Shown: one piece after another, positions 16,906 through 33,227 of the stretch
Layout: every line of letters starts with the position of its first letter
Position numbering within the stretch: the stretch's first letter is position 1
From: Pseudacidovorax sp. NFM-22
GTDB lineage: Bacteria; Pseudomonadota; Gammaproteobacteria; Burkholderiales; Burkholderiaceae_C
DNA: 64,000 nt
NCBI RefSeq assembly: GCF_021401245.1
Contig: NZ_JACBFY010000002.1
Location: forward strand, 1,054,001 to 1,118,000
Direction of reading: 5' to 3'
Made by a program: the position numbers and the translations under genes
Notes under the pieces: generated by a model
What the model was told of the DNA's origin: nothing
Seen by the model: the letters and a program-made list of their open reading frames with translations, nothing else
The model's database searches: none

Positions 16906-16950
16906 TCGTCGGTTTGGACGATGGCCGCAAGAAGGGGCGATTCCTAGACT
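16906..16950 (+). promoter_or_regulatory. Candidate activator site and promoter of the FadB-like gene (site 1 of 4)
   Basis: A dyad TCGTC-GGTTTG-GACGA spans 16906-16921, preceded by CACTT. GCGATTCCTA follows at 16937-16946 and a -10-like TAGACT at 16945-16950. The dyad centre would be about 43 bases upstream of the start of transcription, the classical class II position for LuxR-type activators. It also lies in front of the divergent regulator gene. Confidence 0.65.
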
Positions 16951-16991
16951 GCCCCCGGCTTTCAGGCCCGAGACACCCAGGAGACAACACC

Positions 16992-19142
16992 GTGTTCGAA
17001 GGAAACAGCATCCGCCTGCAACCCCTGGCCGACGGGCTGGTGGAGCTCGTCTTCGACCGCCGCGGCGAGGCCATCAACAAGTTCGACGCCCGTACCGTCG
17101 CCGAGCTGCGCGAGGCGGTGGCCGTGCTCGCGGCCGACACCGGGCTGCAGGGCGTGCTGATCACCAGCCCCAAGGACGTGTTCATCGTCGGCGCCGACAT
17201 CACCGAATTCGGCGCCACCTTCCAGCAGAGCGCCGAGGCCATCACGGCCGGCGTGCGCCGCAGCAACGATGTCTTCGTCGCGCTGGAAGACCTGCCCGTG
17301 CCCACCGTGGCCGCCATCAACGGCTATGCGCTGGGCGGCGGGCTGGAGCTGGCGCTGGCCGCCACGCTGCGGGTCATGTCCACCGCCGCCCAGGTGGGCG
17401 TGCCCGAGGTCAAGCTCGGCCTCTTTCCCGGCTTCGGCGGCACGGTGCGGCTGGCCCGCGTGGCGGGGCTGGCGACGGCCATGCGCTGGGTCGCCACCGG
17501 CACGCCGGCCGATGCGCGCACCGCCCAGGCCGCGGGCGTGGTCGATGCCGTGGCCGAGCCCGAGGCGCTGCGCGACGCGGCCCTCGCCTTGTTGCGCCGC
17601 TGTGTCGCCGGCGAGGTGGACTGGCGCGCCCAGGTCGCGCGCAAGCACGCGGCGTTGCCCGGCGATGCCGAGGCCTTCGCGGCCACGGCGCAGCAGGTGT
17701 TGGCCGAGCTGGCTCCGCGCCTCGGCCGCCACCAGCCCGCCGCGCCCATGGCCCTGGCCATGATGGCCGAGGGCGCCTCGCAGCCGCGCGACGAGGCCCT
17801 GCGGCTGGAGGCCGAGGCCTTCGGCCGCGTCGCACGCACGCAGGCGGCGGCCTCGCTGGTGCGTACCTTCCTCAACGAACAGGCCGTGCGCAAGGCGGCG
17901 AAGAAGCAGGCCGCCGGTGCAAAGGCGCCGCCCCGGGCCGCCGTGCTCGGCGCCGGCATCATGGGTGGCGGCATCGCCTTCAGCAGCGCGCTGGCCGGCA
18001 TTCCCGTGCGCATGAAGGACATCCGCGCCGACCAGCTCGATCTGGGCATGACCGAGGCCGCCAAACAGCTCGGCCGCCGCGTGCAGACCGGCCGCCTCGC
18101 GCAGGCCAAGGCCGACGCGGTGCTGGCCGCCATCACGCCGCAGCTGGACGATGCGGGCCTGGACGCGGCGGACCTGGTGGTCGAGGCCATCGTCGAGCGT
18201 CTGGAGGTCAAGCAGCAGGTGCTGGCCGCGCTGGAGCCGCAGCTGCGGCCCGATGCGCTGATCGCCACCAACACCTCCAGCCTGCGCCTGGCCGACATCG
18301 CCAAGCCGCTGGCCCGGCCGCAGAACCTGGTCGGCCTGCATTTCTTCAACCCCGTGCCGGCCATGCCGCTGGTCGAGGTCGTGCGCGGGCCGCAGACCAG
18401 CGACACCGCCGTGGCCGCCGCGGTGGCCTATGCCCTGGCCATGAAGAAGACGCCCATCGTGGTGGCCGACGGCCCGGGCTTCCTGGTCAACCGCGTGCTC
18501 ACCGCCTACTTCAATGCCTTCAACGAACTGGTGGCCGAGGGCGTGGATTTCACCGCCATCGACCGCGCCATGGAGGCCTTCGGCTGGCCCATGGGCCCGG
18601 CCTGGCTCAACGACGTGGTGGGCATGGACACGGGCGCCCATGTGGGCGACGTGATCACCGCCGGCCATCCCGGGCGCATGCGCGCCATCGACGCCAACCC
18701 GGTGCACCGCATGGTGCGCGCCGGCCGCCTCGGCCAGAAGAGCGGCGCCGGCTTCTACCGCTACGAACGCGACGCCGCCGGCAAGCCCCGCCGCAGCGCC
18801 GACCCCGCCGCCCAGGCCCTGCTGGCCGACCTGTCGCCCGGCGGCTTCACGCCCATGGCCGACGAAGCCATCGTGGAGCGGCTGATGCTGCCTTTGCTGG
18901 CCGAGGCCATCGCCGCGCTGGAGGAAGGCAGCGTCGCCAGCGCCGCCGAGCTGGACATGGCCCTGCTGCTGGGCGTGGGCTTTCCGGCCTGGCTGGGCGG
19001 GCCGCTGCAGTACGCCGACTGGCTGGGTGCGGCCGAGTTGCTGCGACGGCTGGAGGCCCATGCCGCGCACGGCCCCGCCTATGCGCCGCCCGAACTGCTG
19101 CGGCAGATGGCGGCGCAGCAGCGGCGCTTCCACCCGCTCTGA
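16992..19142 (+). CDS. 3-hydroxyacyl-CoA dehydrogenase/enoyl-CoA hydratase (FadB-type multifunctional enzyme)
   Basis: A protein of 716 residues, the usual length of FadB alpha subunits. The N-terminal crotonase domain has both catalytic Glu residues (E119 in GGGLELAL and E139 in VPEVKLG, the same numbering as E. coli FadB). The central NAD domain starts with AVLGAGIMGGGIAF, and the dehydrogenase His is in GLHFFNPVPAMPLVE. It catalyses hydration and oxidation in beta-oxidation. The start is a GTG behind AGGAGACAAC; no ATG fits. The thiolase partner lies 4.3 kb downstream with an identical operator. Confidence 0.93.
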   Translation: MFEGNSIRLQPLADGLVELVFDRRGEAINKFDARTVAELREAVAVLAADTGLQGVLITSPKDVFIVGADITEFGATFQQSAEAITAGVRRSNDVFVALEDLPVPTVAAINGYALGGGLELALAATLRVMSTAAQVGVPEVKLGLFPGFGGTVRLARVAGLATAMRWVATGTPADARTAQAAGVVDAVAEPEALRDAALALLRRCVAGEVDWRAQVARKHAALPGDAEAFAATAQQVLAELAPRLGRHQPAAPMALAMMAEGASQPRDEALRLEAEAFGRVARTQAAASLVRTFLNEQAVRKAAKKQAAGAKAPPRAAVLGAGIMGGGIAFSSALAGIPVRMKDIRADQLDLGMTEAAKQLGRRVQTGRLAQAKADAVLAAITPQLDDAGLDAADLVVEAIVERLEVKQQVLAALEPQLRPDALIATNTSSLRLADIAKPLARPQNLVGLHFFNPVPAMPLVEVVRGPQTSDTAVAAAVAYALAMKKTPIVVADGPGFLVNRVLTAYFNAFNELVAEGVDFTAIDRAMEAFGWPMGPAWLNDVVGMDTGAHVGDVITAGHPGRMRAIDANPVHRMVRAGRLGQKSGAGFYRYERDAAGKPRRSADPAAQALLADLSPGGFTPMADEAIVERLMLPLLAEAIAALEEGSVASAAELDMALLLGVGFPAWLGGPLQYADWLGAAELLRRLEAHAAHGPAYAPPELLRQMAAQQRRFHPL

Positions 19143-19204
19143 ACACACGCCTTCGCCTGCCGCCACTGCAGGCGCCCTTCACCACGACACAGGAGAGTCC
19201 CCTC

Positions 19205-19999
<795 letters not shown>

Positions 20000-20014
20000 C
20001 CGGCGCTTCAGTGC

Positions 20015-20431
20015 TCAGGATGGCGCAAAGGGGTTGAACACCTCCACGGCCAGCGCCTTGAAGTCCGCCACGTTGCGGGTGGCCACGGTCAGGCCATGGA
20101 CCTGGGCGGTGGCGGCGATCATGGCATCTTCGTAGAGCGTGTCGGACTTCCGGTGCATCAGCCGCGCCCAGGCCCGGAAGGCCGCGGCGTCCATGGGCAG
20201 GACGTTGTAGGCGCTGGCGATCTGCGCCAGCCATGCCTCGATCTCCTGGGCCTTGGCTGCGTCCTGTTCCTTCGTCAGCTCGATGCCGGCCTGGATCTCG
20301 CCGAGCGTCACCGCCGAAAGATGCAGCTGCGCATCGTCCAGGGACTTCAGCCAGGCGACCACCCCGCCGTGCGGGCGCAGGCGGCGCAGTTCGGAGACGA
20401 CGTTGGTGTCGAGCAGGTAGCCCTGCGTCAC
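20015..20431 (-). CDS. vapC: Type II toxin, PIN domain (VapC/FitB-like)
   Basis: A protein of 138 residues with the PIN-domain start YLLDTNVVSELRR, a central acidic site (SAVTLGEIQAGIE) and the C-terminal acidic motif DTLYEDAMIAATA. VapC toxins are metal-dependent ribonucleases, usually cleaving tRNA or rRNA. The start is a GTG that overlaps the antitoxin stop by four bases (20428-20431 read GTGA on this strand). It is a compact accessory module inside the acyl-CoA locus. Confidence 0.88.
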   Translation of the reverse strand: MTQGYLLDTNVVSELRRLRPHGGVVAWLKSLDDAQLHLSAVTLGEIQAGIELTKEQDAAKAQEIEAWLAQIASAYNVLPMDAAAFRAWARLMHRKSDTLYEDAMIAATAQVHGLTVATRNVADFKALAVEVFNPFAPS

Positions 20432-20685
20432 CGCTGCGGCTCCACCTTGCGCCTGCGCGCCTGGCCGCGCGCGGGCACCAGCAGATCGGTGCGGCCGACG
20501 TCCGACAGCAGCAACTGCTTGAGCGACGGACGTGCCGCCGACTGCAGCCGGCGCCATTCCTGCACCGGCACCAGCACGGCCGCCTCAGCGCCGCGGCGGG
20601 TCACCATCTGCGGGCCTTGCTCGAGGCAGGCGTCGAGGAATTCGCTGAACCGCGCCTTGGCGTCCTGAACGGGCCATGTGTGCAT
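20428..20685 (-). CDS. Type II antitoxin, Phd/YefM family
   Basis: A protein of 85 residues starting MHTWPVQDAKARFSEFLDACLEQGPQ, the standard Phd/YefM N-terminal DNA-binding fold (VTRRGAEAAVLVPVQEW), with a basic tail of about 30 residues that would wrap the VapC toxin. It is encoded upstream of and overlaps the toxin, the usual order. A small dyad 25 bases upstream of its start is a likely autoregulatory operator. Confidence 0.88.
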   Translation of the reverse strand: MHTWPVQDAKARFSEFLDACLEQGPQMVTRRGAEAAVLVPVQEWRRLQSAARPSLKQLLLSDVGRTDLLVPARGQARRRKVEPQR

Positions 20686-20709
20686 CGAAAAGCTCCCTGT
20701 TGAACTGGT

Positions 20710-20724
20710 CAGACAACTAGTCTG
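20710..20724. promoter_or_regulatory. Candidate operator of the toxin-antitoxin pair
   Basis: CAGAC-AACTA-GTCTG is a perfect dyad with five-base arms and spacer, with partial extension (TC and TCA) on both sides. It lies 25-39 bases upstream of the antitoxin ATG, where Phd-type antitoxins bind to repress their own promoter. Confidence 0.5.
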
Positions 20725-20831
20725 TCAGCGGAGCGGCGCACTGTCAAACGACCGACCTCGCGGCCCGTTTCTCGGCGGGACTTTCGCCCATCGGCGGGCG
20801 GCCGGCCCGGAGTCCGGATCGATCCCCTTCA

Positions 20832-20853
20832 AATCGTTGGAATCCAAACGATT
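20832..20853. promoter_or_regulatory. Candidate MarR operator
   Basis: Perfect seven-base arms AATCGTT (20832-20838) and AACGATT (20847-20853) enclose eight bases, 17 bases upstream of the MarR start. The spacing and AT-rich arms are typical of MarR autoregulatory sites overlapping the promoter. Confidence 0.6.
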
Positions 20854-20870
20854 CGCCTATCATCCACCCC

Positions 20871-21329
20871 ATGGACGACGACTCCCCCGCCCTGCCCCGC
20901 CAGCGCTTCGGCATGCGCTTCGTCGTGCTCGCCCGCCGCTGGCGCCGGGCGCTGGACGCGCAACTCGCCGCCCTGGGCCTGACCGATGCGGGCTGGCCGC
21001 CGCTGATGTACCTGGCCGAGGCAGGCGGGGGGCTCACGCAGCGGGAGCTGGCCGAGCGCATCGGCATCGACGGCTCCAGCCTGGTGCGGCTGCTGGACCA
21101 GCATGCCCGCGCCGGCTGGATCGAGCGCCGCGACGATCCGCAGGACCGCCGCACCTGGCGGCTTTTCCTGACCCGCGACGGGCGCGCGGTGGTGCGGCGC
21201 ATCCAGACGGTGCTGGACCGGGTGGAAGGCCGCATGCTCGCCGGGCTGGACGACGCGCAGCTGCAGGCGCTGCTCGATGGCTTCGACCGCATCGGCGAAG
21301 GCATCGCGGCCATGGAGTCCGGGGCATGA
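20871..21329 (+). CDS. MarR-family transcriptional regulator
   Basis: A protein of 152 residues with the winged helix of MarR proteins (LTQRELAERIGIDGSSLVRLLDQHARAGWIERRDDPQDRRTW, about residues 55-95), including the D-x-R wing motif. MarR proteins are repressors released by phenolic or other small ligands. Its stop overlaps the start of the FUSC efflux gene (ATGA at 21326-21329), so the two form a coupled operon and the pump is the obvious target. A dyad just upstream is the probable operator. Confidence 0.9.
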   Translation: MDDDSPALPRQRFGMRFVVLARRWRRALDAQLAALGLTDAGWPPLMYLAEAGGGLTQRELAERIGIDGSSLVRLLDQHARAGWIERRDDPQDRRTWRLFLTRDGRAVVRRIQTVLDRVEGRMLAGLDDAQLQALLDGFDRIGEGIAAMESGA

Positions 21330-23311
21330 CGGCCCGCCCGGGCGTTCCGGCCGCCGGCGCTCCTTCCTTCGACCGCCTCGCGCGCCGCCTCGGTTTCGAG
21401 CCCGCTCGCCTCGCCTTCACCCTGCGCACCGCGGCGGGCTCGGGCGTGGCGCTGCTGCTGGCAGGCCTGCTGGGCCTGGACCATCCCCAATGGGCGGCCA
21501 TGACCGTGTGGATCGCGGCGCAGCCGCTGCGCGGCCACCTGATCGAGAAGAGCCTGTTCCGCCTGCTGGGCACGGCCGCCGGTGCCGCCTATGGCGTGGC
21601 GCTGGTGGCCCTGGGCCAGGGCTCGCCGGCGGTGCTGGTGCCCGGGCTGGCGCTGTGGGCCGGGCTGTGCGCCGGCGCGGGGCAGCTGCTGCGCGGCTTC
21701 GCGAGCTATGGCACGCTGCTGGCCGGCTACTCGGCGGCGATGGTGGCGTTGCTCGATGCCAGCCATCCCACGCACATCGCCGCCTTCGGGCTGGACCGGC
21801 TGCTGACCATCGGCCTGGGTGTGGTGGTGGCACTGGCCGTGAGCCTGCGCTTCGCGGCCCGGCCGCCGGCCGATGCGCTGCACCTGCGCACGCGCACGCT
21901 CTGCCTGGAGCGGCTGCGCGAACTGGCCGCCTGGGCGCGCACCGGGGCGCTGCCGGCGCACACGGCGCGCGACACCCAGCTGGCGGAACTGGCACGGCTG
22001 GAGGAAGGGCTGGAGCTGCAGGTGGCCGGCCGCCTCGATTCCCGCCGCGAGGTGCGCGCGCTGCGCCAGGCGCTGACCGCCCAGGTCGGCCTGCTGCTGT
22101 GGTGGCCGGGGGCGCAGGCGCCCGCACGCGCCGATGGCGCCGCGCTGGCCGATGCCCTGCAGGCCACCCTCGATGCCGCCGCCGCCGGCCGGTCGGTGGG
22201 CCCTTCGCTCCTTCAGGCCGCCACGGTCGCCGAAGCGCAGGACGCCGAACTGGCTGCGGTGCTGCGTCGCCTTGGCGCGGCGGCTGGCAGCATCGAAAGC
22301 CCTGCCGGTGGCGCAGGCGCGCGGGAGCCCAGCGCCGCGCCATCCGGCGCACAGCCGCCGGCCGCCTTCGAGCCGACCGTCGTGCTGCACCGCGACTGGA
22401 TCGCCGCCCGCGAGACCTTCCTGCGCTCCGTGCTCACGCTCGGCCTCATCGGTGCGCTGTGGCTGGCGACCGGCTGGGCCGCGGCGCCGCTGCTCATGCT
22501 CGGCGTGGCGGTGATGACCACGCTCTTTTCCACCGCCGACGACCCGGCGCGGATCATGCGCTCGGTCTTCTGCGGCCAATTGCTCGGTGCCGCCGCGGCG
22601 CTGGCGGTGCAGGCCCTGCTCTGGCCGTGGGTGGACGGCGCGCTCGGGCGATTGCTGATGTGCCTGCCGCTGGTGCTGGCCGGCGCCTTCGTGCTGGCGC
22701 ATCCGCGCACGGCGCGCTTCGGCTTCGACTTCAACCTCGTTGGCCTGCTGCTCCTGCAGCCCATGCATGCCCGGGCGTTCTCCTGGCCGACGGGGCTGGC
22801 CGAGGCGGCCGCCGTGGTGGCCGGGCCGCTGGTGGCGCTGGCGGCCTTCCGCCTCGTCTTTCCGCCGGGCGGGCGGCGTCGCTATGCGCAACTGTCGGCG
22901 CTGATGCAGGCGGAGGTCGCGGCCATGGCCGCGCAGCCGCAGGCCTGGCGACGGGCCGAGGTGTGGCGGGCCCGGTTGCAGCACCGCGTGCTGCGCCTGG
23001 TCCGCTGCGCCGATGCGGCCGGCCTGGCGCCGGAGCACGGCGCACGCCAAGGCCTGGCCGTGCTGGCCACCGGACAGGCGGTGCTCGCGCTCGGGCAGCT
23101 GCTGGCGCAGGACACGCTGCCGCCTGCCGACCGTCGCCGTGCGCAGGCCTGGCTGCGTCGGCTGGCCCGGCCCATGCGCAGTCCGGCCCAGGCCCACCGC
23201 CGGGGCCGCCTGCTGGCGCGCGATGCGTTGCGGCTCGGCCCCCCGCCCGCCCGGCATGCGCCGGCCTCGGCGCTGCAGCACGCCGCCCGGGTGCTGGCGC
23301 GGGCCGTCTGA
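21326..23311 (+). CDS. FUSC-family inner-membrane efflux protein
   Basis: A protein of 661 residues with two clusters of hydrophobic segments, one in the first 180 residues and one at about 375-520, separated by a long soluble domain, the layout of fusaric acid resistance/AaeB proteins. These pump aromatic acids or other toxic carboxylates, usually with a membrane fusion protein and outer membrane factor; neither is adjacent. The ATG at 21326 overlaps the MarR stop. Control by the MarR protein is inferred from the coupling. Confidence 0.85.
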   Translation: MTARPGVPAAGAPSFDRLARRLGFEPARLAFTLRTAAGSGVALLLAGLLGLDHPQWAAMTVWIAAQPLRGHLIEKSLFRLLGTAAGAAYGVALVALGQGSPAVLVPGLALWAGLCAGAGQLLRGFASYGTLLAGYSAAMVALLDASHPTHIAAFGLDRLLTIGLGVVVALAVSLRFAARPPADALHLRTRTLCLERLRELAAWARTGALPAHTARDTQLAELARLEEGLELQVAGRLDSRREVRALRQALTAQVGLLLWWPGAQAPARADGAALADALQATLDAAAAGRSVGPSLLQAATVAEAQDAELAAVLRRLGAAAGSIESPAGGAGAREPSAAPSGAQPPAAFEPTVVLHRDWIAARETFLRSVLTLGLIGALWLATGWAAAPLLMLGVAVMTTLFSTADDPARIMRSVFCGQLLGAAAALAVQALLWPWVDGALGRLLMCLPLVLAGAFVLAHPRTARFGFDFNLVGLLLLQPMHARAFSWPTGLAEAAAVVAGPLVALAAFRLVFPPGGRRRYAQLSALMQAEVAAMAAQPQAWRRAEVWRARLQHRVLRLVRCADAAGLAPEHGARQGLAVLATGQAVLALGQLLAQDTLPPADRRRAQAWLRRLARPMRSPAQAHRRGRLLARDALRLGPPPARHAPASALQHAARVLARAV

Positions 23312-23342
23312 GGGGGCCGCCGCGGTCCGCGGCCCTCGAAAT

Positions 23343-23387
23343 TCGTCGCTTCGGACGAGCGACGCCGCCGCCTTCGCCGCCCAGAAT
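23343..23387 (+). promoter_or_regulatory. Candidate activator site and promoter of the thiolase (site 2 of 4)
   Basis: The dyad TCGTC-GCTTCG-GACGA at 23343-23358 is followed by a -10-like CAGAAT at 23382-23387, the same offset as in front of the FadB-like gene. The thiolase ATG is 44 bases downstream of the -10-like hexamer. Confidence 0.62.
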
Positions 23388-23430
23388 CCACGCGGACTTC
23401 CGACGAACCGCATTGGAGACTGGAGACCCC

Positions 23431-24615
23431 ATGGCAGAAGCATTCATCGTCGCCGCCACCCGCACCGCCGGCGGCAAGCGCGGCGGCCGACTCTCGGGCT
23501 GGCACCCGGTGGACCTCGCAGCACAGGTGATCGACGAACTGGTGCGCCGCGCCGATGCCGACCCCGCCCTGGTCGAGGACGTGATCATGGGCTGCGTCAG
23601 CCAGGTGGGCCAGCAGGCCACCAACGTGGCGCGCAATGCGGTGCTGGCCTCGTCGCTGCCCGAGTCGGTGCCCGGCACCTCGGTCGACCGGCAGTGCGGC
23701 TCCTCGCAGCAGGCGCTGCATTTCGCGGCCCAGGCCGTGATGAGCGGCAGCATGGACGTGGTGATCGCCGCGGGCGTGGAGAGCATGTCCCGCGTGCCGA
23801 TGTTCACGCCCAACGCCCTGCCGCTGAAGGCGGGCCTGGGCGGCTACATGAGCCCGGCCATGCAGAAGCGCTACCCCGGCGTGGAGTTCAGCCAGTTCAT
23901 GGGCGCCGAGATGATGGCCAAGAAGTACGGCCTCTCGAAGGAGCAGCTCGACGTCTACGCGCTGCAGAGCCACCAGCGTGCCGTCGCGGCCACCAACGAG
24001 GGCCGCTTCGCTAAAGAGATCCTGGCAGTCGAAGCCCGCAGCGCCGAAGGCGGCGCCGAGGGCGAGGGCCAGCCGCACACGGTCGACGAAGGCATCCGCT
24101 TCAACGCCACGCTGGAGGGCATCGCCGGCGTCAAGCTGATCCAGGAGGGCGGCCGCTGCACGGCGGCCACCGCCAGCCAGATCTGCGACGGCGCCACGGG
24201 CGTGATGGTCGTCAACGAGCGCGGCCTCAAGGCGCTGGGCGTCAAGCCGCTCGCCCGCATCCACCACATGACCATGATCGGCCACGACCCGGTGATCATG
24301 CTCGAGGCGCCCATCCCCGCCACGCAGCGCGCGCTGCAGAAGGCGGGCATGAAGATCGACGACATCGACCTGTTCGAGGTCAACGAGGCCTTCGCGCCCG
24401 TGCCCCTGGCCTGGCTGCAGGTGACGGGCGCCGACCCGGCGCGCCTCAACGTCAACGGCGGCGCCATCGCCCTGGGCCATCCGCTGGGCGCCTCGGGCAC
24501 CAAGCTGATGACCACGCTCATCCATGCCCTGCACGACCGCGGCGGCCGCTACGGTCTGCAGACCATGTGCGAAGGCGGCGGCATGGCCAACGTGACCATC
24601 GTCGAGCGGCTCTGA
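23431..24615 (+). CDS. Acetyl-CoA C-acyltransferase (thiolase)
   Basis: A protein of 394 residues, normal for degradative thiolases. The nucleophilic Cys is C89 in DRQCGSSQQ, the catalytic His is H350 in LGHPLGASG, and the second Cys is C380 in TMCEGGGMAN. It releases acetyl- or propionyl-CoA from 3-ketoacyl-CoA in the last step of beta-oxidation. The ATG follows GGAGAC. It has its own promoter with the shared dyad and probably acts with the FadB-like protein encoded upstream; a long hairpin repeat begins directly after its stop. Confidence 0.93.
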   Translation: MAEAFIVAATRTAGGKRGGRLSGWHPVDLAAQVIDELVRRADADPALVEDVIMGCVSQVGQQATNVARNAVLASSLPESVPGTSVDRQCGSSQQALHFAAQAVMSGSMDVVIAAGVESMSRVPMFTPNALPLKAGLGGYMSPAMQKRYPGVEFSQFMGAEMMAKKYGLSKEQLDVYALQSHQRAVAATNEGRFAKEILAVEARSAEGGAEGEGQPHTVDEGIRFNATLEGIAGVKLIQEGGRCTAATASQICDGATGVMVVNERGLKALGVKPLARIHHMTMIGHDPVIMLEAPIPATQRALQKAGMKIDDIDLFEVNEAFAPVPLAWLQVTGADPARLNVNGGAIALGHPLGASGTKLMTTLIHALHDRGGRYGLQTMCEGGGMANVTIVERL

Positions 24616-24775
24616 GAAGGTGTGAACGAACCCGCCATGTCCGCTCGTTCTGCCAAAACACGCCCACTCTGCGTTGCAAATGCTCGCCATAGCCCGAGCT
24701 ATGGCTGCGCTTTGCGCCTGGATTGGCCGCGTTTTCGCAGCCCGCTCGGCCACGCCGGATTCATTCACACCTTCT
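24615..24775. repeat. Long-hairpin extragenic repeat after a stop codon
   Basis: Twelve-base arms AGAAGGTGTGAA (24615-24626) and its exact complement (24764-24775) enclose about 140 bases, and inner segments around GAGCTATGG and GCCATAGC pair as well. The element begins on the last base of the thiolase stop. Shortened relatives lie after two other stop codons, at 45571-45594 and 49591-49657. Confidence 0.7.
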
Positions 24776-24828
24776 GAGCCGCGGCCGGGCCATCTCCACG
24801 GGAGATGCACGCTCGGTGACCCTGGATC

Positions 24829-24854
24829 GTTCAGGCTGAGCCTGTCGAAGCCCG
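24829..24854. repeat. REP-like element with CTGAGCCTGTCGAAG core
   Basis: A copy of the element at 11134, identical over GTTCAGGCTGAGCCTGTCG and the following bases, lying 55 bases upstream of the ABC ATPase gene in the gap after the long hairpin. Confidence 0.8.
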
Positions 24855-24908: not shown

Positions 24909-25734
24909 ATGACCCAGGACTTCGGAGACAGACACGCCGCCGCCGCCGAACCCCTGCTGCGCATCGAGGGGCTGTCGGTGCGCTTCGGCGGCATCGTGGC
25001 GCTGGACGGCGTGGGCTTCGACGTGGCCGCCGGCCAGGTCTGCGGCCTGATCGGGCCCAATGGCGCGGGCAAGAGCACGCTGTTCAATTGCCTTTCGCGG
25101 CTGTATGGCTGGCAGGCCGGGCGCATCGAATTCGCCGGTCGCTCGCTGGCCACGCTGCCGCGCCACCGCATGGCGGCGCTGGGCATCGGCCGCACCTTCC
25201 AGAACCTGGCGCTCTTCGCCAGCATGACGGTGCGCGAGAACGTGCGCGTGGGCACGCACACGCACCAGCATGCGGGCTTCCTGCGCGACGCGCTGCGCCT
25301 GCCCGGCGTGCGGCAACTGGAGGCCGAAGCCGAGGCGCGCACCGAGGAGTTCATCACCCTGCTCGACCTGGGCGCCGTGGCCGACCGCCGCGTCGGCGAC
25401 CTGCCCTTCGGCACCCAGAAGCGGGTGGAGCTGGCCCGCGCCCTGGCCGCGCGTCCCCGGCTGCTGCTGCTGGACGAGCCGGCCTGCGGCCTCAACCACG
25501 AGGAGCTGGAAGGCCTGGGCGACCTGATCCTCGCGCTACGTGCGCGGCTGGGCCTGACGGTGCTGCTGGTGGAGCACCACATGGGCCTGGTCATGCGGGT
25601 GAGCGACAAGGTGGTCGCCCTCAACTTCGGCCGCAAGATCGCCGAGGGCACGCCCGAGGCGGTGCGCCGCCATCCCGAGGTGATCCGTGCCTACCTGGGC
25701 GACGACGGCGGTGCTGCCGAGACGGAGGTGCGCC

Positions 25735-25751
<17 letters not shown>
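24909..25751 (+). CDS. Branched-chain amino acid-type ABC transporter ATP-binding protein (LivG-like)
   Basis: A protein of 280 residues with Walker A GPNGAGKST, a LivG-type Q-loop (GRTFQNLALF), a degenerate signature (LPFGTQKRVELARAL) and Walker B LLLLDEPACGL. It is one of two ATPases of a hydrophobic amino acid uptake (HAAT) importer, with LivF, LivH, LivM and a binding protein encoded 3.6 kb downstream. In this locus it more likely serves import of organic acids than leucine. The LivF start overlaps its last 17 bases. Confidence 0.92.
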
Positions 25752-26460
<709 letters not shown>

Positions 26461-26467
26461 GTACACC

Positions 26468-27340
26468 ATGGACGCATTTCTGCACCAGCTCTTCGCCGGC
26501 CTGGCCACCGGCGGCATCTACGCCACCGTCGCGCTGGCGCTGGTGATGATCTACCAGGCCACGCACCACATCAATTTCGCCCAGGGCGAGATGGCGATGT
26601 TCTCCACCTTCATCGCCTGGTCGCTGATGCAGGCGGGGCTGCCCTACTGGGCGGCCTTCTTCGCCACGGTGGCGCTGTCCTTCGTGGTGGGCGCGGCGGT
26701 GGAGTTCGCCATCATCCGGCCGATGCACAAGGCCACCGACCTGGCGCAGGTGGTGGTCTTCATCGGGCTGCTGGTGGTCTTCCACAGCCTGGCGGGCTGG
26801 CTCTTCGGCTACACGATCAAGGAATTTCCCAGCCCCTTCCCCAAGGATGCCTGGTACGCCAGTGCCCTGATGTCCGCGCACGAGGTGGGCGCCATCGCCG
26901 TCGCGCTGGCCCTGGTGGCGCTGCTCTTCGCCTTCTTCCGCCTCACGCCGCTGGGCCTGGCCATGCGGGCTGCGGCGCAGAACCCGGCCTCGTCGCGGCT
27001 GGTGGGCATCTCGGTGGGCCGCATGCTGATGTTGGGCTGGGGCCTGGCCGGCGCCATCGGCGCGGTGGCCGGGATGATGGTGGCGCCGGTGGTCTTCCTC
27101 GATCCGCACATGATGACCGGCGTGCTGCTCTATGCCTTTGCCGGCGCGCTGCTGGGCGGCATCGACAACCCGGTGGGCGCGGTGGTCGGCGGCTTCCTGG
27201 TGGGCGTGCTGGAGAACCTGATGGGCAGCTATGTGGTGGGCACCGAGCTCAAGCTCTCGGTGGCGCTGGTGCTGATCGTGGGCGTGCTCATCGTGCGCCC
27301 GGCCGGCCTGATGGGGCGGCGCATCGTGAAGAGGGTCTGA
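26468..27340 (+). CDS. ABC transporter permease (LivH-like)
   Basis: A protein of 290 residues with about eight hydrophobic segments and the LivH features GLATGGIYATVALALVMIYQATHHINFAQGEMAM at the N-terminus (paraphrased: the family's conserved start) and GALLGGIDNPVGAVVGGFLVG near the C-terminus. It is an inner-membrane channel subunit of the HAAT-type importer, read in one operon with the two ATPases and LivM. Confidence 0.92.
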   Translation: MDAFLHQLFAGLATGGIYATVALALVMIYQATHHINFAQGEMAMFSTFIAWSLMQAGLPYWAAFFATVALSFVVGAAVEFAIIRPMHKATDLAQVVVFIGLLVVFHSLAGWLFGYTIKEFPSPFPKDAWYASALMSAHEVGAIAVALALVALLFAFFRLTPLGLAMRAAAQNPASSRLVGISVGRMLMLGWGLAGAIGAVAGMMVAPVVFLDPHMMTGVLLYAFAGALLGGIDNPVGAVVGGFLVGVLENLMGSYVVGTELKLSVALVLIVGVLIVRPAGLMGRRIVKRV

Positions 27341-27345
27341 ACGTC

Positions 27346-28353
27346 ATGTCCACCGTGCTCACTTCCGAGGCCGTGCCGCTGAAGGCGGCGCCCGCGAGGC
27401 GGCGGCTCTCGCCCTCGTCCGTCTTCGCGCTGGCGTTGATCGTGGCCGGCGTGGCCCTGGCCTTCATCGCGCAGGGCTACCAGCTCTTCCAGGCCACCAT
27501 GGTGCTGGCCTATGCGGTGGCGCTGGTGGGGCTGAACATCCTCACCGGCTACAACGGCCAGATCTCGCTGGGCCATGGCGCCTTCTTCGCCATCGGCGCC
27601 TATGCGGCCGGCATCCTCATGGACCGCGCGGGCGTGCCCTACTGGCTGGCGGTGCCGGCCGCGGGCGTCGTGAGCCTGGGGGTGGGCTACCTCTTCGGGC
27701 GACCGGCGCTCAAGCTCGAAGGCCTGTACCTGGCGCTGGCCACCTTCGCGCTGGGCGTGGCCATGCCGCAGCTGCTCAAGTACAAGCATCTGGAGGCGTG
27801 GACCGGCGGCGTGGGCGGCATCGTGCTGACCAAGCCCGAGGCGCCCTGGGGCCTGCCGCTGGATGCCGACCAGTGGTTCTACCTCTATGCGCTGGCCGTG
27901 GCGGTGCTGCTGTTCTGGGGCGCGCGCAACCTGATCGACAGCGGCAGCGGCTTGGCGCTGCGGGCCATCCGCGACCACGGCATGGCGGCCGAGGCCATGG
28001 GGGTGAACAACGCGCATGCCAAGTCCATGGCCTTCGCCGTCTCCGCCGGCTACACCGGCGTGGGCGGCGCGCTGGCGGCCATCGCGGTGCAGTTCGTGGC
28101 GCCGGATTCCTTCACCTTCTTCCTGTCGATCTCGCTGCTGGTGGGCATCGTGGTGGGCGGCGTGGGCACGTTGTGGGGGGCGCTGTTCGGCGCGCTGTTC
28201 ATCCTCTTCGTGCCGGGGCTGGCCGAGCAGGTGTCCAAGTCCGCGCCCTGGGCCGTGTATGGCGTGGTGCTGATCCTCTGCATGTTCGTGATGCCCGGCG
28301 GGGTGATGGGGCTGCTGCACCGGCTGCGGGCCCGGCTCGCCCGCGGTGGCTGA
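27346..28353 (+). CDS. ABC transporter permease (LivM-like)
   Basis: A protein of 335 residues, strongly hydrophobic, with the LivM hallmark NILTGYNGQISLGHGAFFAIGAY region near residues 62-84 and an EAMGVNNAHAK-type coupling helix that docks on the ATPase. It forms the second half of the transmembrane channel. The gene starts five bases after livH and is followed after 39 bases by a crotonase gene, so transporter and catabolic enzyme genes share a transcript. Confidence 0.92.
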   Translation: MSTVLTSEAVPLKAAPARRRLSPSSVFALALIVAGVALAFIAQGYQLFQATMVLAYAVALVGLNILTGYNGQISLGHGAFFAIGAYAAGILMDRAGVPYWLAVPAAGVVSLGVGYLFGRPALKLEGLYLALATFALGVAMPQLLKYKHLEAWTGGVGGIVLTKPEAPWGLPLDADQWFYLYALAVAVLLFWGARNLIDSGSGLALRAIRDHGMAAEAMGVNNAHAKSMAFAVSAGYTGVGGALAAIAVQFVAPDSFTFFLSISLLVGIVVGGVGTLWGALFGALFILFVPGLAEQVSKSAPWAVYGVVLILCMFVMPGGVMGLLHRLRARLARGG

Positions 28354-28392
28354 ATCTTCTACGCCTCGACCTTCAACGCCCAAGGAAACTGC

Positions 28393-29217
28393 ATGACCGC
28401 CGACACCGACACCGTGCTCCGCCTGCACCGCCACGACGAGGTGGCCGTGCTCACGCTGTGCAACACCGCGCGCCTGAACCCGCTGGGCATCGGCCTGCAG
28501 CAGCAGCTGCGTGCGCGGCTGGCCGAGCTGGCGGCCGATGCCGGCGTGCGCGCCGTGGTGCTCACCGGCGAGGGCAAGGGCTTCTGCGTGGGGGCCGACC
28601 TGCAGTCCATGGGCGGCGTGCCGGCCGGCGACGGGCGCACGCTGGGCGCGCACACGGCGGACACCATGCATGCGCTGTCCAACCGGCTGATCCTCGACCT
28701 GCAGGCCCTGCCCATGCCGCTGGTCTGCGCCGTCAACGGCGCGGCGGCGGGCGCCGGTGCGGGCCTTGCGCTCGCGGGCGACTTCACGCTCATGGCCCGC
28801 GCGGCCTACTTCTTCCTGCCCTTCCTGCCCCGGCTGGGCATCGTGCCCGACCTGGGCACCACCTGGTTCATCGAACGCCGGCTGGGCCGTGCACGGGCCA
28901 TGGGCCTGGCCCTGCTGGGCGAGCGCCTGTCGGCCCAGCAGGCGCTGGACTGGGGCCTGGTGTGGGGCTGCGTGGACGATGCCGCCCTGCAGGACGAGGC
29001 CCTCACCCTGGCCCACCGCCTGGCCCGCCTGCCCGCGCATGCCGCGATGGAGGCGCGCCGCGCACTGGACGCCGCCGCCACCGGCAGCCTGGCCGACCAG
29101 CTGCACTACGAGGCCGAGCGCCAGCGCGAACTGATCGACGGCGCAGCCTTCGCGGAGGGCGTGCGCGCCTTCGTGCAGAAGCGCGAGCCCGCGTTTCCGC
29201 CGCGCAGCGCAGGCTGA
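28393..29217 (+). CDS. Crotonase-fold isomerase (PaaG-like)
   Basis: A protein of 274 residues. The oxyanion block GFCVGADLQS is normal, but both hydratase Glu positions are lost (G124 in GAGAG and F144). An Asp in GIVPDLGTTW (D153) aligns with the catalytic Asp of PaaG and enoyl-CoA isomerases. It therefore probably shifts a double bond (delta3 to delta2) or isomerises a ring-derived acyl-CoA, rather than hydrating. It lies between the Liv-type permease and binding-protein genes. Confidence 0.87.
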   Translation: MTADTDTVLRLHRHDEVAVLTLCNTARLNPLGIGLQQQLRARLAELAADAGVRAVVLTGEGKGFCVGADLQSMGGVPAGDGRTLGAHTADTMHALSNRLILDLQALPMPLVCAVNGAAAGAGAGLALAGDFTLMARAAYFFLPFLPRLGIVPDLGTTWFIERRLGRARAMGLALLGERLSAQQALDWGLVWGCVDDAALQDEALTLAHRLARLPAHAAMEARRALDAAATGSLADQLHYEAERQRELIDGAAFAEGVRAFVQKREPAFPPRSAG

Positions 29218-29237
29218 TTCCCCATGCGCCCGCCCAA

Positions 29238-29282
29238 TCGTCGGAACCGACGATGGGCACCGGCAGAGGCGATTCCTACCAT
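29238..29282 (+). promoter_or_regulatory. Candidate activator site and promoter of the ABC binding protein (site 3 of 4)
   Basis: The dyad TCGTC-GGAACC-GACGA, a perfect 16-base palindrome, spans 29238-29253. GCGATTCCTA follows at 29269-29278, at exactly the spacing seen at 16937, and a -10-like TACCAT lies at 29277-29282. Confidence 0.68.
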
Positions 29283-29348
29283 CGCCTCGCGACCCCGCAC
29301 CAAGGCCCACACCACACAGAACGGGCCGACGACAACCAGGAGACAACC

Positions 29349-30563
29349 ATGCGCCTTTCCATCGCACGCGGCCTGGGGGCCGCGCTTGCCACCTTCTCGC
29401 TGCTGGCCCTGGCGCCTGCCGCGCAGGCCCAGAAGAAGTACGACACCGGGGCCAGCGACACCGAGATCAAGGTCGGCAACTTCGTGCCCTACTCCGGCCC
29501 GGCCTCGGCCTACGGCACCATCGGCAAGACCCATGCGGCCTACTTCGCCAAGCTCAACGCCGAAGGTGGCATCAACGGCCGCAAGATCACCTACCTGTCG
29601 GCCGACGATGCCTACAACCCCGCCCAGAGCGTGGAGCAGACCCGCAAGCTGGTCGAGCGCGACGGCGTGCTGCTGATGTTCGGCGCGCTGGGCACCTCGC
29701 ACAACCAGGCCGTGCAGCGCTACATGAACCAGCGCAAGGTGCCGCAGCTGTTCGTCTCCACCGGCGCCACGCGCTGGGGCGACCCCAAGAACTTCCCGTG
29801 GACCATGGGCTGGCAGCCCACCTACCAACTCGAAGGTGCGATCTTCGCGCGCCACATCATGGCCACCCGGCCCAATGCCAAGGTCGGCATCCTGATGCAG
29901 AACGACGACTTCGGGAAGGACTACCTCAAGGGCGTGATGGACGGCTTCGGCGACAAGGCCAAGCAGTTCATCGTCAGCCAGCAGACCTACGAGGTGACCG
30001 ACCCGACGGTGGACAGCCAGATGGTCGCGCTCAAGGGCTCGGGCGCCGACACCTTCATCAACATCACCACGCCCAAGTTCGCCGCCCAGTCCATCCGCAA
30101 GGCGGCCGACATCGGCTGGAAGCCGGCCCACTACCTGGTGAGCGTGTCGCTGTCGATCAGCTCGGTCATCAAGCCGGCCGGTGCCGACAACGCGCAGGGC
30201 ATCATCACCGCCACCTACCTGCGCGAGCCCTCCGACCCGAGCAACCAGGGCACGCGCGAACTGGCCGACTACCTGGCCTTCATGAAGCAGTACCACCCGG
30301 CGGGCGACCCGAACGATTCGCTCAACGTCATCGGCTATTCGCAGGCCCAGACGCTGGCCGAGGTGCTGCGCCGCTGCGGCGACGACCTGACCCGCGCCAA
30401 CGTCATGAAGCAGGCCGCCAGCCTGAAGATGGCGCTGCCCATGCTCTACCCCGGCATCACGCTCAGCACCGGCGCCGACGACTTCTTCCCCATCAAGAAG
30501 ATGCAGCCCGTGCGCTTCGACGGCACGCGCTACGTGCCTTTCGGCGAGCTGCTCGGCAGCTGA
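29349..30563 (+). CDS. ABC transporter substrate-binding protein (LivK/HAAT type)
   Basis: A protein of 404 residues with a signal peptide ending at AQA-Q (about residue 27) and a type I periplasmic binding fold (EIKVGNFVPYSGPASAYG, VLLMFGALGTSHNQAVQRYM). It is the periplasmic receptor of the Liv-type importer encoded just upstream. It has its own promoter with the shared dyad, separate from the ATPase/permease genes, and is the first gene of a unit continuing into an acyl-CoA ligase and thioesterase. Confidence 0.92.
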   Translation: MRLSIARGLGAALATFSLLALAPAAQAQKKYDTGASDTEIKVGNFVPYSGPASAYGTIGKTHAAYFAKLNAEGGINGRKITYLSADDAYNPAQSVEQTRKLVERDGVLLMFGALGTSHNQAVQRYMNQRKVPQLFVSTGATRWGDPKNFPWTMGWQPTYQLEGAIFARHIMATRPNAKVGILMQNDDFGKDYLKGVMDGFGDKAKQFIVSQQTYEVTDPTVDSQMVALKGSGADTFINITTPKFAAQSIRKAADIGWKPAHYLVSVSLSISSVIKPAGADNAQGIITATYLREPSDPSNQGTRELADYLAFMKQYHPAGDPNDSLNVIGYSQAQTLAEVLRRCGDDLTRANVMKQAASLKMALPMLYPGITLSTGADDFFPIKKMQPVRFDGTRYVPFGELLGS

Positions 30564-30602
30564 GCCACCACCGCATCGCCACCGCATCCAGGAGACACCG
30601 CC

Positions 30603-32252
30603 ATGTCCGAACCCCTCTTCGGCCTGATGCAGGACCGCCCACTGCTGATCTCGTCGCTCATCGAGCATGCGGCGCGCTTCCATCCGCGCACCGAGATCGT
30701 CTCGCGCCTGCCCGAGGGCGGCACGCACCGCACCGACTGGCTGGGCGTGCGCAACGCCGCCTGCCGCATCGCCAACGCGCTGCAGTCGCTGGGCATCCAG
30801 CGCGGCGATCGCGTGGCCACGCTGGCCTGGAACAGCTGGCGCCACCTGGCGCTGTACTTCGGCGTCTCGGGCACGGGCGCCGTGCTGCACACCGTCAACC
30901 CGCGGCTCTTTCCGGAGCAGATCGAGTACATCGCCAACCATGCCGAAGACCGCGTGCTGTTCTTCGACGTCACCTTCGCGCCGCTGGTGCAGAAGCTGGC
31001 GCCGAAGCTCAAGACCGTGAAGACCTACGTCTGCATGACCTCGCGCGAGCACATGCCCGCGCTGGACCTGCCCGACCTGCGCTGCTGGGACGAGCTGCTC
31101 GCCGCCCAGAGCGAGCACTACGACTGGCCCGACTTCGACGAGCGCACCGCGTCCTCGCTCTGCTACACCTCGGGCACCACCGGCAACCCCAAGGGCGTGC
31201 TCTATTCGCACCGCTCGACGATGCTGCACACGCTGATGGAGCTGGCGCCCGACACCTTCGGCATCAGCTCGCGCGAGACGGTGATGCTGATCGTGCCCAT
31301 GTTCCATGCCAACGGCTGGGGCACGCCCTATGCGGCGGCCATGGTGGGCACGCGGCTGGTGTTCCCGGGGCCGCACATGGACGGCGAGAGCGTCTACACG
31401 CTGATGAAGGACGAGCGGGTCACCTTCTCGCAGGGCGTGCCCACGGTGTGGCTGATGCTCTTCCAGTACCTGGACGCGCATCCCGAGATCGATCCGCGCC
31501 AGCTCGGCGTCAAGATGATCGGCATCGGCGGCGCCGCCGTGCCGCGCGCCATGCTGGAGCGCTTCGAGAAGCAGTTCGGCGCGCAGGTGGTGCAGGGCTG
31601 GGGCATGACCGAGACCAGCCCCATCGGCGTCATCAGCAAGCTGCTGCCCAAGCACGACAGCATGGCCGAGGACGAGCTGGTCAAGGTCAAGCTCAAGCAG
31701 GGCCGCGGCGTGTGGGGCGTGGACCTCAAGCTGGTCGACGACATGGGCGAGGTGCAGCCCTGGGACGGCCAGTCGCGCGGCCACCTGCGCGTGCGCGGTC
31801 CGTGGATCGCCTCGGGTTATTTCAAAGGAGAGGGCGGCTCGCCGATGGACGACGAGGGCTACTTCAACACCGGCGACGTCGCCACCATCGACACCGACGG
31901 CTACCTGCAGCTGGTCGACCGGGCCAAGGACGTGATCAAGTCCGGCGGCGAGTGGATCTCGTCCATCGACGTCGAGAACGCGGCCATGGGCCATCCGGGC
32001 GTGGCCGAGGCGGCCATCATCGGCGTGGCCCATCCCAAGTGGCAGGAGCGTCCGTTGCTGCTGGTGGTGCCGCGCGCGGGCCACCAGCCCACCAAGGAAT
32101 CGGTGCTCGACTTCCTGTCCACCCGCATCGCCAAGTGGTGGCTGCCCGACGACGTGGTGGTGGTGCCCGAGCTGCCCCACACGGCCACGGGCAAGCTGCT
32201 CAAGACGCGGCTGCGCGAGCAGTACCGCGACTACCGGCTGCCCACGGCATGA
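30603..32252 (+). CDS. Acyl-CoA synthetase (medium/long-chain fatty acid-CoA ligase)
   Basis: A protein of 549 residues of the AMP-forming ligase family, with the P-loop YTSGTTGNPKGV, the GWGMTETSP motif, the hinge DRAKDVIKSGGEWIS and the C-terminal Lys in TATGKLLKTRLRE. It activates a carboxylic acid to its CoA thioester with ATP. It follows the binding-protein gene by 39 bases, so uptake and activation are encoded together. The ATG is behind AGGAGAC. The chain-length class resembles medium/long-chain ligases, but specificity cannot be read. Confidence 0.92.
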   Translation: MSEPLFGLMQDRPLLISSLIEHAARFHPRTEIVSRLPEGGTHRTDWLGVRNAACRIANALQSLGIQRGDRVATLAWNSWRHLALYFGVSGTGAVLHTVNPRLFPEQIEYIANHAEDRVLFFDVTFAPLVQKLAPKLKTVKTYVCMTSREHMPALDLPDLRCWDELLAAQSEHYDWPDFDERTASSLCYTSGTTGNPKGVLYSHRSTMLHTLMELAPDTFGISSRETVMLIVPMFHANGWGTPYAAAMVGTRLVFPGPHMDGESVYTLMKDERVTFSQGVPTVWLMLFQYLDAHPEIDPRQLGVKMIGIGGAAVPRAMLERFEKQFGAQVVQGWGMTETSPIGVISKLLPKHDSMAEDELVKVKLKQGRGVWGVDLKLVDDMGEVQPWDGQSRGHLRVRGPWIASGYFKGEGGSPMDDEGYFNTGDVATIDTDGYLQLVDRAKDVIKSGGEWISSIDVENAAMGHPGVAEAAIIGVAHPKWQERPLLLVVPRAGHQPTKESVLDFLSTRIAKWWLPDDVVVVPELPHTATGKLLKTRLREQYRDYRLPTA

Positions 32253-33163
32253 GCGGTGCCGCCGCCCCTCCTCACGAAGCCATGCGCCGGCAGGCCTGGC
32301 GCCCGACGCGCGAGGCCTATGGGTGGCACACGGTCCTGGCGCCGCGCCATGCCGACCTGGACCTGCTGCGGCACCTGAACAATGCCGCGGTGATCGGGCT
32401 GCACATCGAGGCCCGGATGCGCTGGCTCGACGCCGTGCTGCCCCAGGCGGCGCCGGATGGCCTGCGCCTGCGCCCTGCCGGGCTCTGGACGGACTTTCTG
32501 GCCGAAGGCGCCTATCCCGCGGCGCTGGAGGCCGGCGTGGCGCTGCTGTGCGTGGATGCCGAGGCGGCCCACATCGCCACCGCCCTCTTCCAGCAGGGCC
32601 GCTGCATCGGCCTGCAGCACACCGAGCTGGCGGCCTGGCAGGACGGCGAGCGCGTGCCCCTGCCCGCGGCGCTCGTGCAGCAGCTGCGCCTGCACGAGCA
32701 GCCGCGCACCTTGCCTGCGGAGGCGCATGCGGCCTTCGGTGCGCCGGCCACCCAGGCCATCGAGGAACTGCTGGCCACCCGGTATGCCGACGTCGATGCC
32801 GAAGGACTGCTGTCCGACGTGGCGCTGGCCCGCTACCTGGAGCATGGCCGCTCCCGCTGGTGGCTCGATGGCGGCACCGACCCCAGCCGGCTGCCGCTCA
32901 CGGGTGGCGTCGACGTGATGGTGGCCCACATCGCCCTGCGCGTGCACCGCGCCACGCCCGTGCCGGTCACCTGGGGCCTGCGCACCGGCGTGCAGGCGCT
33001 GGGCCGCAGTTCGGTGGTGCTGCGCTGCCGGCTGTTCGACGGCGCGCTGCTGCAGGCCGACAGCGAGGCCGTGCTGGTTGCCATCGACCCCGTCACGCAC
33101 CGGCCGGCGACGCTGCCCGATGCGGTGCGCGAACGCTGGGCCGCGCTGCTGCCGGCGGCCTGA
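32249..33163 (+). CDS. Double hotdog acyl-CoA thioesterase family protein
   Basis: A protein of 304 residues built of two hotdog repeats of about 150 residues. The first has APRHADLDLLRHLNNAAVI and the second ATRYADVDAEGLLSDVALARYLEHGR, each a variant of the 4HBT active-site helix. Such proteins hydrolyse acyl-CoA or aroyl-CoA thioesters. Its ATG overlaps the ligase stop (ATGA at 32249-32252), so ligase and thioesterase are translationally coupled, perhaps to recover CoA from dead-end thioesters. Confidence 0.83.
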   Translation: MSGAAAPPHEAMRRQAWRPTREAYGWHTVLAPRHADLDLLRHLNNAAVIGLHIEARMRWLDAVLPQAAPDGLRLRPAGLWTDFLAEGAYPAALEAGVALLCVDAEAAHIATALFQQGRCIGLQHTELAAWQDGERVPLPAALVQQLRLHEQPRTLPAEAHAAFGAPATQAIEELLATRYADVDAEGLLSDVALARYLEHGRSRWWLDGGTDPSRLPLTGGVDVMVAHIALRVHRATPVPVTWGLRTGVQALGRSSVVLRCRLFDGALLQADSEAVLVAIDPVTHRPATLPDAVRERWAALLPAA

Positions 33164-33181
33164 AGCAGCGGCGCGGCACTT

Positions 33182-33227
33182 TCGTCCGTTCCGACGATTC
33201 CGGGTGCGGCGCCGGCTGCGCCATCAT
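33182..33227 (+). promoter_or_regulatory. Candidate activator site and promoter of the racemase (site 4 of 4)
   Basis: The dyad TCGTC-CGTTCC-GACGA spans 33182-33197 and shares the upstream CACTT with site 1. A weak -10-like CATCAT lies at 33222-33227, one base off the common offset. It is followed by the racemase gene. Confidence 0.58.

Follow-up and report, generated by a model that had tools for sequence, protein, structure and literature searches.

The 64-kb window that we analysed (64,000 nucleotides of Pseudacidovorax sp. NFM-22, contig NZ_JACBFY010000002.1, positions 1,054,001 to 1,118,000) contains a cluster of acyl-CoA genes in which a short palindrome, TCGTC-N6-GACGA, precedes four of the genes. 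At 14171..16843 on the minus strand lies the gene for an 890-residue LuxR-family regulator of the LAL (MalT-type, STAND) kind, the proposed activator. Divergent from it, behind operator 1 and on the plus strand as are all the genes that follow, is a gene for a FadB-like 3-hydroxyacyl-CoA dehydrogenase/enoyl-CoA hydratase (16992..19142), with which an SDR oxidoreductase gene (19205..19999) is probably co-transcribed. Operator 2 stands before acetyl-CoA acyltransferase (thiolase, 23431..24615). After a gap of some 290 bases come LivG, LivF, LivH, LivM and an enoyl-CoA hydratase (24909..29217), likely members of the thiolase operon; in two related genomes (G175 and G242) thiolase, LivG, LivF, LivH, LivM and enoyl-CoA hydratase follow a single dyad in this order. 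Operator 3 precedes a LivK-type periplasmic binding protein (29349..30563), next to which are an acyl-CoA ligase (30603..32252) and a thioesterase-like protein (4HBT_2, 32282..33163). Behind operator 4 is a racemase-like protein of CoA-transferase family III (33287..34369), presumably co-transcribed with an acyl-CoA ligase, an acyl-CoA dehydrogenase, an enoyl-CoA hydratase, an SDR protein and a second enoyl-CoA hydratase (34395..40000). Pfam and NCBIfam matches bear out the calls made for FadB, thiolase, binding protein, racemase family and the divergent MalT-type LuxR protein in an earlier reading of the letters alone (the sequence-only reading).

The exact dyad is present four times in the window and nowhere else in it, at 16906..16921 (TCGTCGGTTTGGACGA), 23343..23358 (TCGTCGCTTCGGACGA), 29238..29253 (TCGTCGGAACCGACGA) and 33182..33197 (TCGTCCGTTCCGACGA), each time on the plus strand; dinucleotide shuffling produced a mean of 0.05 and a maximum of 1. 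With up to one mismatch allowed there are 15 matches, the exact four included, against 1.46 expected. Each dyad is followed by a -10-like hexamer: TAGACT at 16945..16950 (starting 24 bases past the dyad, with 23 bases between), CAGAAT at 23382..23387 and TACCAT at 29277..29282 (24 bases in both cases), and CATCAT at 33222..33227 (25 bases). Sites 1 and 3 have GCGATTCCTA in common, and sites 1 and 4 the lead CACTTTCGTC. The dyad positions, the hexamers with their spacing and both shared strings had been given in the sequence-only reading and were found exactly so. The start codons lie 71, 73, 96 and 90 bases from the ends of the four dyads. A weight matrix trained on 63 promoters from other loci recovered these four sites alone in the window (22.1-29.1 bits on the best strand, operator 2 being the weakest), the next-best place scoring 9.8. 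The opposite strand at site 1 has no NANNNT at 22-24 bases, so no sign of autoregulation of the LAL gene was seen there.

The regulator carries the parts expected of its kind. Near its N terminus is a P-loop, APAGFGKT (A47-PAGF-G52-K53-T54), invariant across 11 aligned rows; the protein matches PF17874 (TPR_MalT) at 88.1 bits (cut-off 45) and, at its C terminus, PF00196 (GerE) at 61.3 bits (cut-off 23.5). The recognition helix reads TVRTHLR. Its score against the NCBIfam MalT equivalog, 345.2 bits, is below the cut-off of 537, and by that measure it is not MalT. The window's genome (G000, 6.42 Mb) encodes a single full-length paralogue, 48% identical, at 476818-479553 of contig C17, and the two paralogues have the same helix core, VRTHLR. 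Six further matches to the LAL cover the C-terminal region only; these partial matches to its helix-turn-helix (HTH) are 36-41% identical, and their helices were not read.

The sequence-only reading had proposed a regulon of four promoters and a whole-genome scan for the dyad. In its bare form the dyad had to be discarded as a diagnostic, as it matches G000 67 times against 64 for the reversed control, which is no enrichment, and 43 of the 57 matches examined singly are inside predicted genes, the other 14 being intergenic. A refined form fared otherwise: the nine examined dyads with A or T at both central positions are all intergenic, all have a NANNNT hexamer 22-24 bases on, and lie solely on the contig stretches where the two LAL genes are found. 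The refuting outcome named in the sequence-only reading, scattered and mainly genic matches, applies to the bare dyad and is false for the refined form. Four of them are those of the window; the other five are on C17 (429250, 432099, 476762, 483327 and 489570), where the genes behind them encode thiolase, acyl-CoA ligase, acyl-CoA dehydrogenase, LivK and LivH. The longer form TCGTCNNWWNNGACGAT is found 5 times forward and 6 times reverse in G000, the number expected from the flanks of the nine sites, with none of that form left over; sites that lack the T after the arm, as operator 2 does, could still be among the ten remaining dyads. The proposed regulon and its four promoters thus stand, and its size does not: in G000 it would comprise nine promoters, split between two clusters. 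That two clusters and a pair of paralogous regulators go with a single operator design is the strongest clue within this genome.

The operator is conserved in relatives. A genome scan for close homologues gave 15 loci (from Pseudacidovorax, Xenophilus, Delftia and records with vaguer names; one Xenophilus strain, E41, apparently accounts for two), the closest named ones being of Pseudacidovorax with regulators 96-98% identical. The comparison of orthologous promoters that had been suggested places an exact dyad directly before the LuxR gene, at the position of site 1, in 14 of the 15 loci; the contig of the fifteenth starts inside the gene. Two or three exact dyads are present in 12 of the 15. 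We then took the survey to 250 genomes of the family with a profile of 11 homologues, scoring three candidates per genome. Matches at E<=1e-100 were obtained in 35 genomes and fall into two score groups, clade A (28 matches of about 840 bits or more, in 25 genomes) and group B (17 matches of 348-483 bits). Neighbourhoods of about 40 kb (26-40 kb) were compared around 21 clade A genes and 9 of the 17 group B genes, plus the two loci of G000; the clade A matches of G064, G159, G233 and G199 and a split contig of G103 are outside this set. Gene positions came from a small codon-usage gene finder built for the purpose. The 23 clade A loci hold 73 exact dyads, 70 of them intergenic, and no locus is without a dyad, whereas the nine group B loci have two dyads, both genic. 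A de novo count of palindromes with 5-base arms and spacers of 0-10 in the intergenic DNA of the 23 loci puts TCGTC-N6 at the top (23 loci, 70 copies); ranks two and three are taken by other frames of it, and the best unrelated palindrome occurs in 12 loci. The 25 clade A genomes have a median of 5 strand-hits of TCGTCNNWWNNGACGAT (mean 6.4), and the other 225 genomes a median of 0 (mean 0.8); the p of 2e-15 is not an independent-sample probability, as the genomes are related. The protein clusters present in at least three of the 23 loci, each typed by Pfam through a single representative, include two regulators and no more: the LAL (22/23) and a TetR protein (3/23).

Beyond the family, a search of 370 genomes across the class, with two candidates each, gave clade A scores in no genomes but G000 and G101, which belong to the window's family; G351 and G437 have lower-scoring relatives. 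A search of plasmids found related proteins with the same helix outside the family. The FadB of the window was followed separately: 11 of the 250 genomes match it at E<=1e-150 (four candidates scored per genome), all with clade A LALs. This does not establish its absence elsewhere, given the four candidates per genome and two congeners with the LAL, G064 and G233, that gave no match.

A called start codon lies within 300 bases of 67 of the 70 intergenic dyads, and these 67 promoters define the anatomy of the operator. Their consensus is (A/T)TCGTC-SNWWNS-GACGAT, the final T being present in 56 of 67. A NANNNT hexamer starts 22-24 bases past the dyad in 62 promoters (frame-shifted controls 0-12), and the stricter TANNNT stands at the phased position in 31 (controls 0-2). 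Between the operator and the -10-like element little is conserved in the alignment, and there is no other conserved -35. If the hexamer is taken as -12 to -7, the dyad centre would fall at about -42.5 to -44.5. The class II geometry near -43 that the sequence-only reading had put forward is upheld by this phasing, with the start position judged from the hexamers. The first genes after the 67 dyads belong to CoA-transferase III (8), thiolase (8), FadB-like (8), two LivK-type clusters (8 together), CoA ligase (7), enoyl-CoA hydratase (5) and LivH (4); of the 19 in other clusters, three belong to a third periplasmic-binding cluster and two to a cluster of acyl-CoA dehydrogenases.

Operator and regulator also vary together. 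In the LAL tree the C17 paralogue and the proteins of G093, G109b and G177 form subclade II (a 100/100 fork). Subclade II promoters have A at position 18 in 11 of 12 cases vs 2 of 55 among the others (p 7e-10), and an AT centre in 10 of 12 vs 9 of 55 (p 1.8e-5). Two genomes, G000 and G109, hold both subclades: position 18 is A in 3/3 and 3/3 promoters near the subclade II gene, and in 0/4 and 0/5 near the gene of the other subclade. The helix reads T(V/I)RTHLR in all 23 clade A proteins and T(V/L)K(F/W)H in the nine of group B, which does not form a single clade in the tree and has several rows on long branches. The helix positions that differ between the two align with DNA-contacting residues of NarL. 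An out-of-family test used five of the six best records of a plasmid collection (H2 was left out as an apparent near-duplicate of H1). Cupriavidus metallidurans CH34, Cupriavidus necator N-1 pBB1 and a Paracoccaceae plasmid, whose LALs read TVRTHL or TVRTHV, have 3, 4 and 3 exact dyads outside called genes, the four of C. necator being less sure promoters as no start was called near them. No exact dyad was present in the LAL stretches of Cupriavidus sp. EM10, with the helix TVKSH, and Pseudomonas sp. MPC6, with TVKWH. A second operator near the EM10 LAL, CTCCC-N7-GGGAG, was considered and rejected: these are G+C-rich, terminator-like repeats (CCCCTCTCCC...GGGAGAGGGG), and a start codon was called within 300 bases of just one of the four. 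The Paracoccaceae plasmid, pLA6_001 (L165), has an alphaproteobacterial LAL annotated 'PknK' with a TetR gene annotated KstR nearby, and its three dyads precede genes for a nitronate monooxygenase, a TRAP receptor and an acyl-CoA ligase.

The dyad is also found in genomes of the family in which the LAL was not detected. Six of these have at least four refined strand-hits (G004, G058, G086, G112, G115 and G149); they were searched together with four others, all candidates being scored, and none of the ten has a clade A LAL at E<=1e-20. G086, G058 and G105 gave partial matches to other proteins of the LAL kind. The four dyads in the stretches fetched from G086 and G112 are all genic (no stretch of G058 or G149 was included). 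The stretches from G115, G004 and G127 contain 12 dyads, of which 11 are intergenic and often of the form TCGTC(C/T)-N4-GGACGATG. On one or both strands, 9 of these 11 are followed by NANNNT at 22-24 bases (either strand was accepted, which is looser than the test on the 67 promoters). MFS, MMPL, YCF48-like, SDR, amidohydrolase and aldehyde dehydrogenase genes are behind them. The same three genomes encode a LuxR protein of a different build, which we call PAS-LuxR (L174:15948-17075 in G115, L235 in G004 and L236 in G127; the last two copies are 68% and 66% identical to that of G115). It has a GerE match of 27.8 bits (cut-off 23.5), PAS matches slightly under cut-off, and the helix NTARAHLRSI with an RAHLR core. 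In G004 and G115 a distance of 2.7-2.8 kb separates its gene from a dyad; in G127 gene and dyad share a contig and are about 45 kb apart.

Taken together, the operator sits about 43 bases before the inferred start and tracks the LAL clade and its recognition helix across genera. We hold with considerable confidence that the dyad is the operator of the adjacent LAL protein, predicted to act as a class II activator of the acyl-CoA regulon. The same protein had been named as the natural candidate in the sequence-only reading, a choice favoured by the 23 against 9 LuxR neighbourhoods, by the co-variation of operator subtype and LAL subclade, and by the counts in the 250 genomes. Two known activators provide precedents. 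MalT of Escherichia coli, a STAND protein, multimerises upon inducer binding and binds its promoters cooperatively; it likewise joins an NTPase, a TPR-type sensor and a C-terminal DNA-binding domain (as given in the available text of PMC4381067). The LAL of the window differs from it in scoring below the MalT equivalog cut-off (345 vs 537 bits), in having mostly one phased palindrome per promoter rather than MalT boxes, and in its pathway. AlkS of Pseudomonas putida GPo1 is a MalT-type LuxR activator that works via an inverted repeat, of 20 bp, upstream of a catabolic promoter; it responds to C6-C10 alkanes and governs alkBFGHJKL and alkST (per the part of PMC8784404 available to us). Both systems pair a MalT-type LuxR protein with an inverted repeat, which here stands just before the -10 (phased in 62/67). 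They differ in that the arms here are TCGTC/GACGA and the targets LivFGHMK and beta-oxidation genes. The comparison is one of descriptions and not of sequences. No alkane hydroxylase gene was seen among the window genes run through Pfam or NCBIfam; a genome-wide search was not made.

With these precedents, and given the P-loop, the MalT-type TPR region and the GerE domain, we propose class II activation by an inducer- and ATP-bound protein. The TPR sensor would bind an intermediate of a carboxylic-acid breakdown pathway, upon which the LAL would exchange ADP for ATP and multimerise. It would then bind the palindrome as a dimer of GerE domains and touch RNA polymerase, standing in for a -35 element. 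The expected outcome would be a joint switch-on of the genes for uptake (LivFGHMK), CoA activation, racemisation and beta-oxidation. In G000 each paralogous regulator would govern one cluster through operators with slightly different centres and flanks. The gene set, with its Liv-type uptake, two CoA ligases, racemase-like protein, acyl-CoA dehydrogenase, hydratases, FadB and thiolase, suggests as inducer a branched or substituted alkanoic acid or its CoA ester.

Several points weigh against this assignment to the LAL. Binding and activation are predictions from comparison, supported by co-inheritance and sequence, and co-inheritance alone may reflect another protein inherited alongside the LAL; a TetR gene is present in 3 of the 23 loci, all of subclade II. 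The same arms, mostly phased, recur in the LAL-less G004, G127 and G115, and so the arms alone do not identify the regulator. One LAL carrier, G088, has no match to the T-ending form and two dyads without the T, neither with a called start nearby. The subtype rule is not clean: 9 of 55 promoters outside subclade II have AT centres, so that subclade I is not pure for TT/AA, and on C17, outside the counted stretch, the site at 429250 has an AT centre with T at 18 and that at 432099 has A at 18 with a TA centre. There are also limits of method. Ten of the 67 bare dyads of G000 were not looked at one by one, scoring three candidates per genome may conceal some LAL carriers among the apparent absences, and intergenic status depends on a home-made gene finder that called few genes near the C. 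necator LAL.

The alternative that survives best is a variant of LAL control in which the two paralogues cross-talk fully and both clusters of G000 are one regulon. The identical arms and the identical VRTHLR core speak for it, the consistent differences at the centre and at position 18 against it, and we regard it as a real possibility that falls somewhat short of an even chance. That another regulator of beta-oxidation binds the dyad, with the LAL a bystander, is distinctly improbable. A 16-bp palindrome would also suit a TetR protein, and TetR genes are indeed found in the loci of G093, G109b and G177. In Comamonadaceae, joint control of fatty-acid degradation genes is predicted for FadP, a member of the TetR family (PMC5343134, in the part available). 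Yet the TetR gene of those three loci is the only other regulator among the recurrent clusters and is in 3 of 23 loci against 22 of 23 for the LAL, the operator follows the LAL clade, its subtype follows the LAL subclade even inside one genome, and a centre near -43, just 5' of the -10 and with no conserved -35, is the position of an activator. For FadP in particular, distribution and subtype point to the LAL instead, the motif of FadP itself having been left out of the comparison.

We consider it very improbable that the LAL binds the dyad and represses, or does both. A Streptomyces LAL, SCO6993, is reported to be a negative regulator (PMC9628970, as far as its available text goes), but here 62 of 67 promoters have the dyad overlapping the -35 position at near-constant spacing, and no separate -35 is conserved, as would be expected of an activator; MalT and AlkS are activators (PMC4381067 and PMC8784404, within the same limits). 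The chance is also very small that a different GerE protein with an R-x-H-L-R helix, such as the PAS-LuxR protein, binds the window dyads. The three genomes with that protein do have 9 of 11 intergenic dyads phased; no match to it was found in G000 at E<=1e-5 with all 30 of 30 candidates scored, and the other matches to the LAL HTH there are partial and 36-41% identical. The LAL thus remains the candidate in that genome. An origin by chance or as a coding by-product of a GC-rich genome can be all but dismissed. The near-equality of the bare dyad and its control and the 43 of 57 genic copies fit it, but the A/T-centred phased subset is all intergenic, clustered and kept in other genera and families, which already refutes it for the refined operator.

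The PAS-LuxR protein bears on a broader question, that of what the arms signify. TCGTC/GACGA arms go with the R-x-H-L-R GerE helix, as far as these sequences tell, and are not exclusive to LAL proteins; the RAHLR core in LAL-less genomes with phased dyads fits recognition by this type of helix. A recognition code across LuxR-type builds can be envisaged, in which the helix core R-(T/A)-H-(L/V)-R would specify TCGTC-N6-GACGA at -43 in PAS-LuxR proteins as well as in the STAND/LAL proteins of Beta- and Alphaproteobacteria. Changes around the core would tune the centre and the post-arm base, and so paralogues with different sensors would partition similar acyl-CoA clusters in one cell. We judge this code likelier for having found the PAS-LuxR case, and put it at evens. 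Common to the two builds are a GerE domain with the R-x-H-L-R helix and a genome that contains phased TCGTC-N6-GACGA dyads. The PAS-LuxR proteins of G115, G004 and G127 differ in their length (about 375-400 residues), in their PAS-like matches with no STAND NTPase or MalT TPR match, and in the transport, aldehyde dehydrogenase and SDR genes that neighbour their dyads. TeiR of Comamonas and PimM of Streptomyces are likely relatives in kind of this protein.

In the open-access literature that we searched (most subscription journals are outside this scope) there was no description of this operator or regulon, and both are apparently undescribed. A survey of 33 regulators names FadP, PsrA, FadR, LiuR and LiuQ, and the words LuxR and MalT are absent from its main text so far as this was available (PMC5343134). 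FadP, of the TetR family, and LiuR and LiuQ resemble the present case in controlling acyl-CoA catabolism in the same families (same source), but they belong to the TetR and MerR families and not to LuxR. LAL regulators are described as a poorly studied family (PMC3282765, in its available part), and one of its clades now has an operator precise enough to single out a small, coherent set of promoters in a 6.4-Mb genome. The paralogue pair is a natural specificity experiment, and a homologue exists in C. metallidurans CH34 at L163:20001-22637, where operators are predicted at L163 15096, 18594 and 22698. If our assignment is right, many LuxR-family annotations beside acyl-CoA clusters would gain a function and inducible control, and the design would offer a modular inducible promoter once the inducer is identified.

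Other features were noted along the way. Within the acyl-CoA cluster of the window, between the FadB/SDR operon and the MarR/FUSC genes, is a pair of Phd/YefM antitoxin and PIN-domain toxin genes (20015-20685, minus strand), and a MarR-family regulator lies immediately 5' of a fusaric-acid-resistance-type (FUSC) transporter (20871-23311, plus strand). Elsewhere in the window are an amidohydrolase with a HutI-like N-terminal match (4414-5829) and an aromatic amino acid lyase (Lyase_aromatic; 58012-59805, plus strand). The TetR regulator of the LAL loci is of the TetR_C_24 type (L109:15308-15901 in G109, also in G093 and G177) and is found in three of the four subclade II loci. A DUF1329 gene stands behind a dyad in G103 (L186:4569-5954), and DUF1302/DUF1329 genes lie near the related LAL of Pseudomonas sp. 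MPC6.

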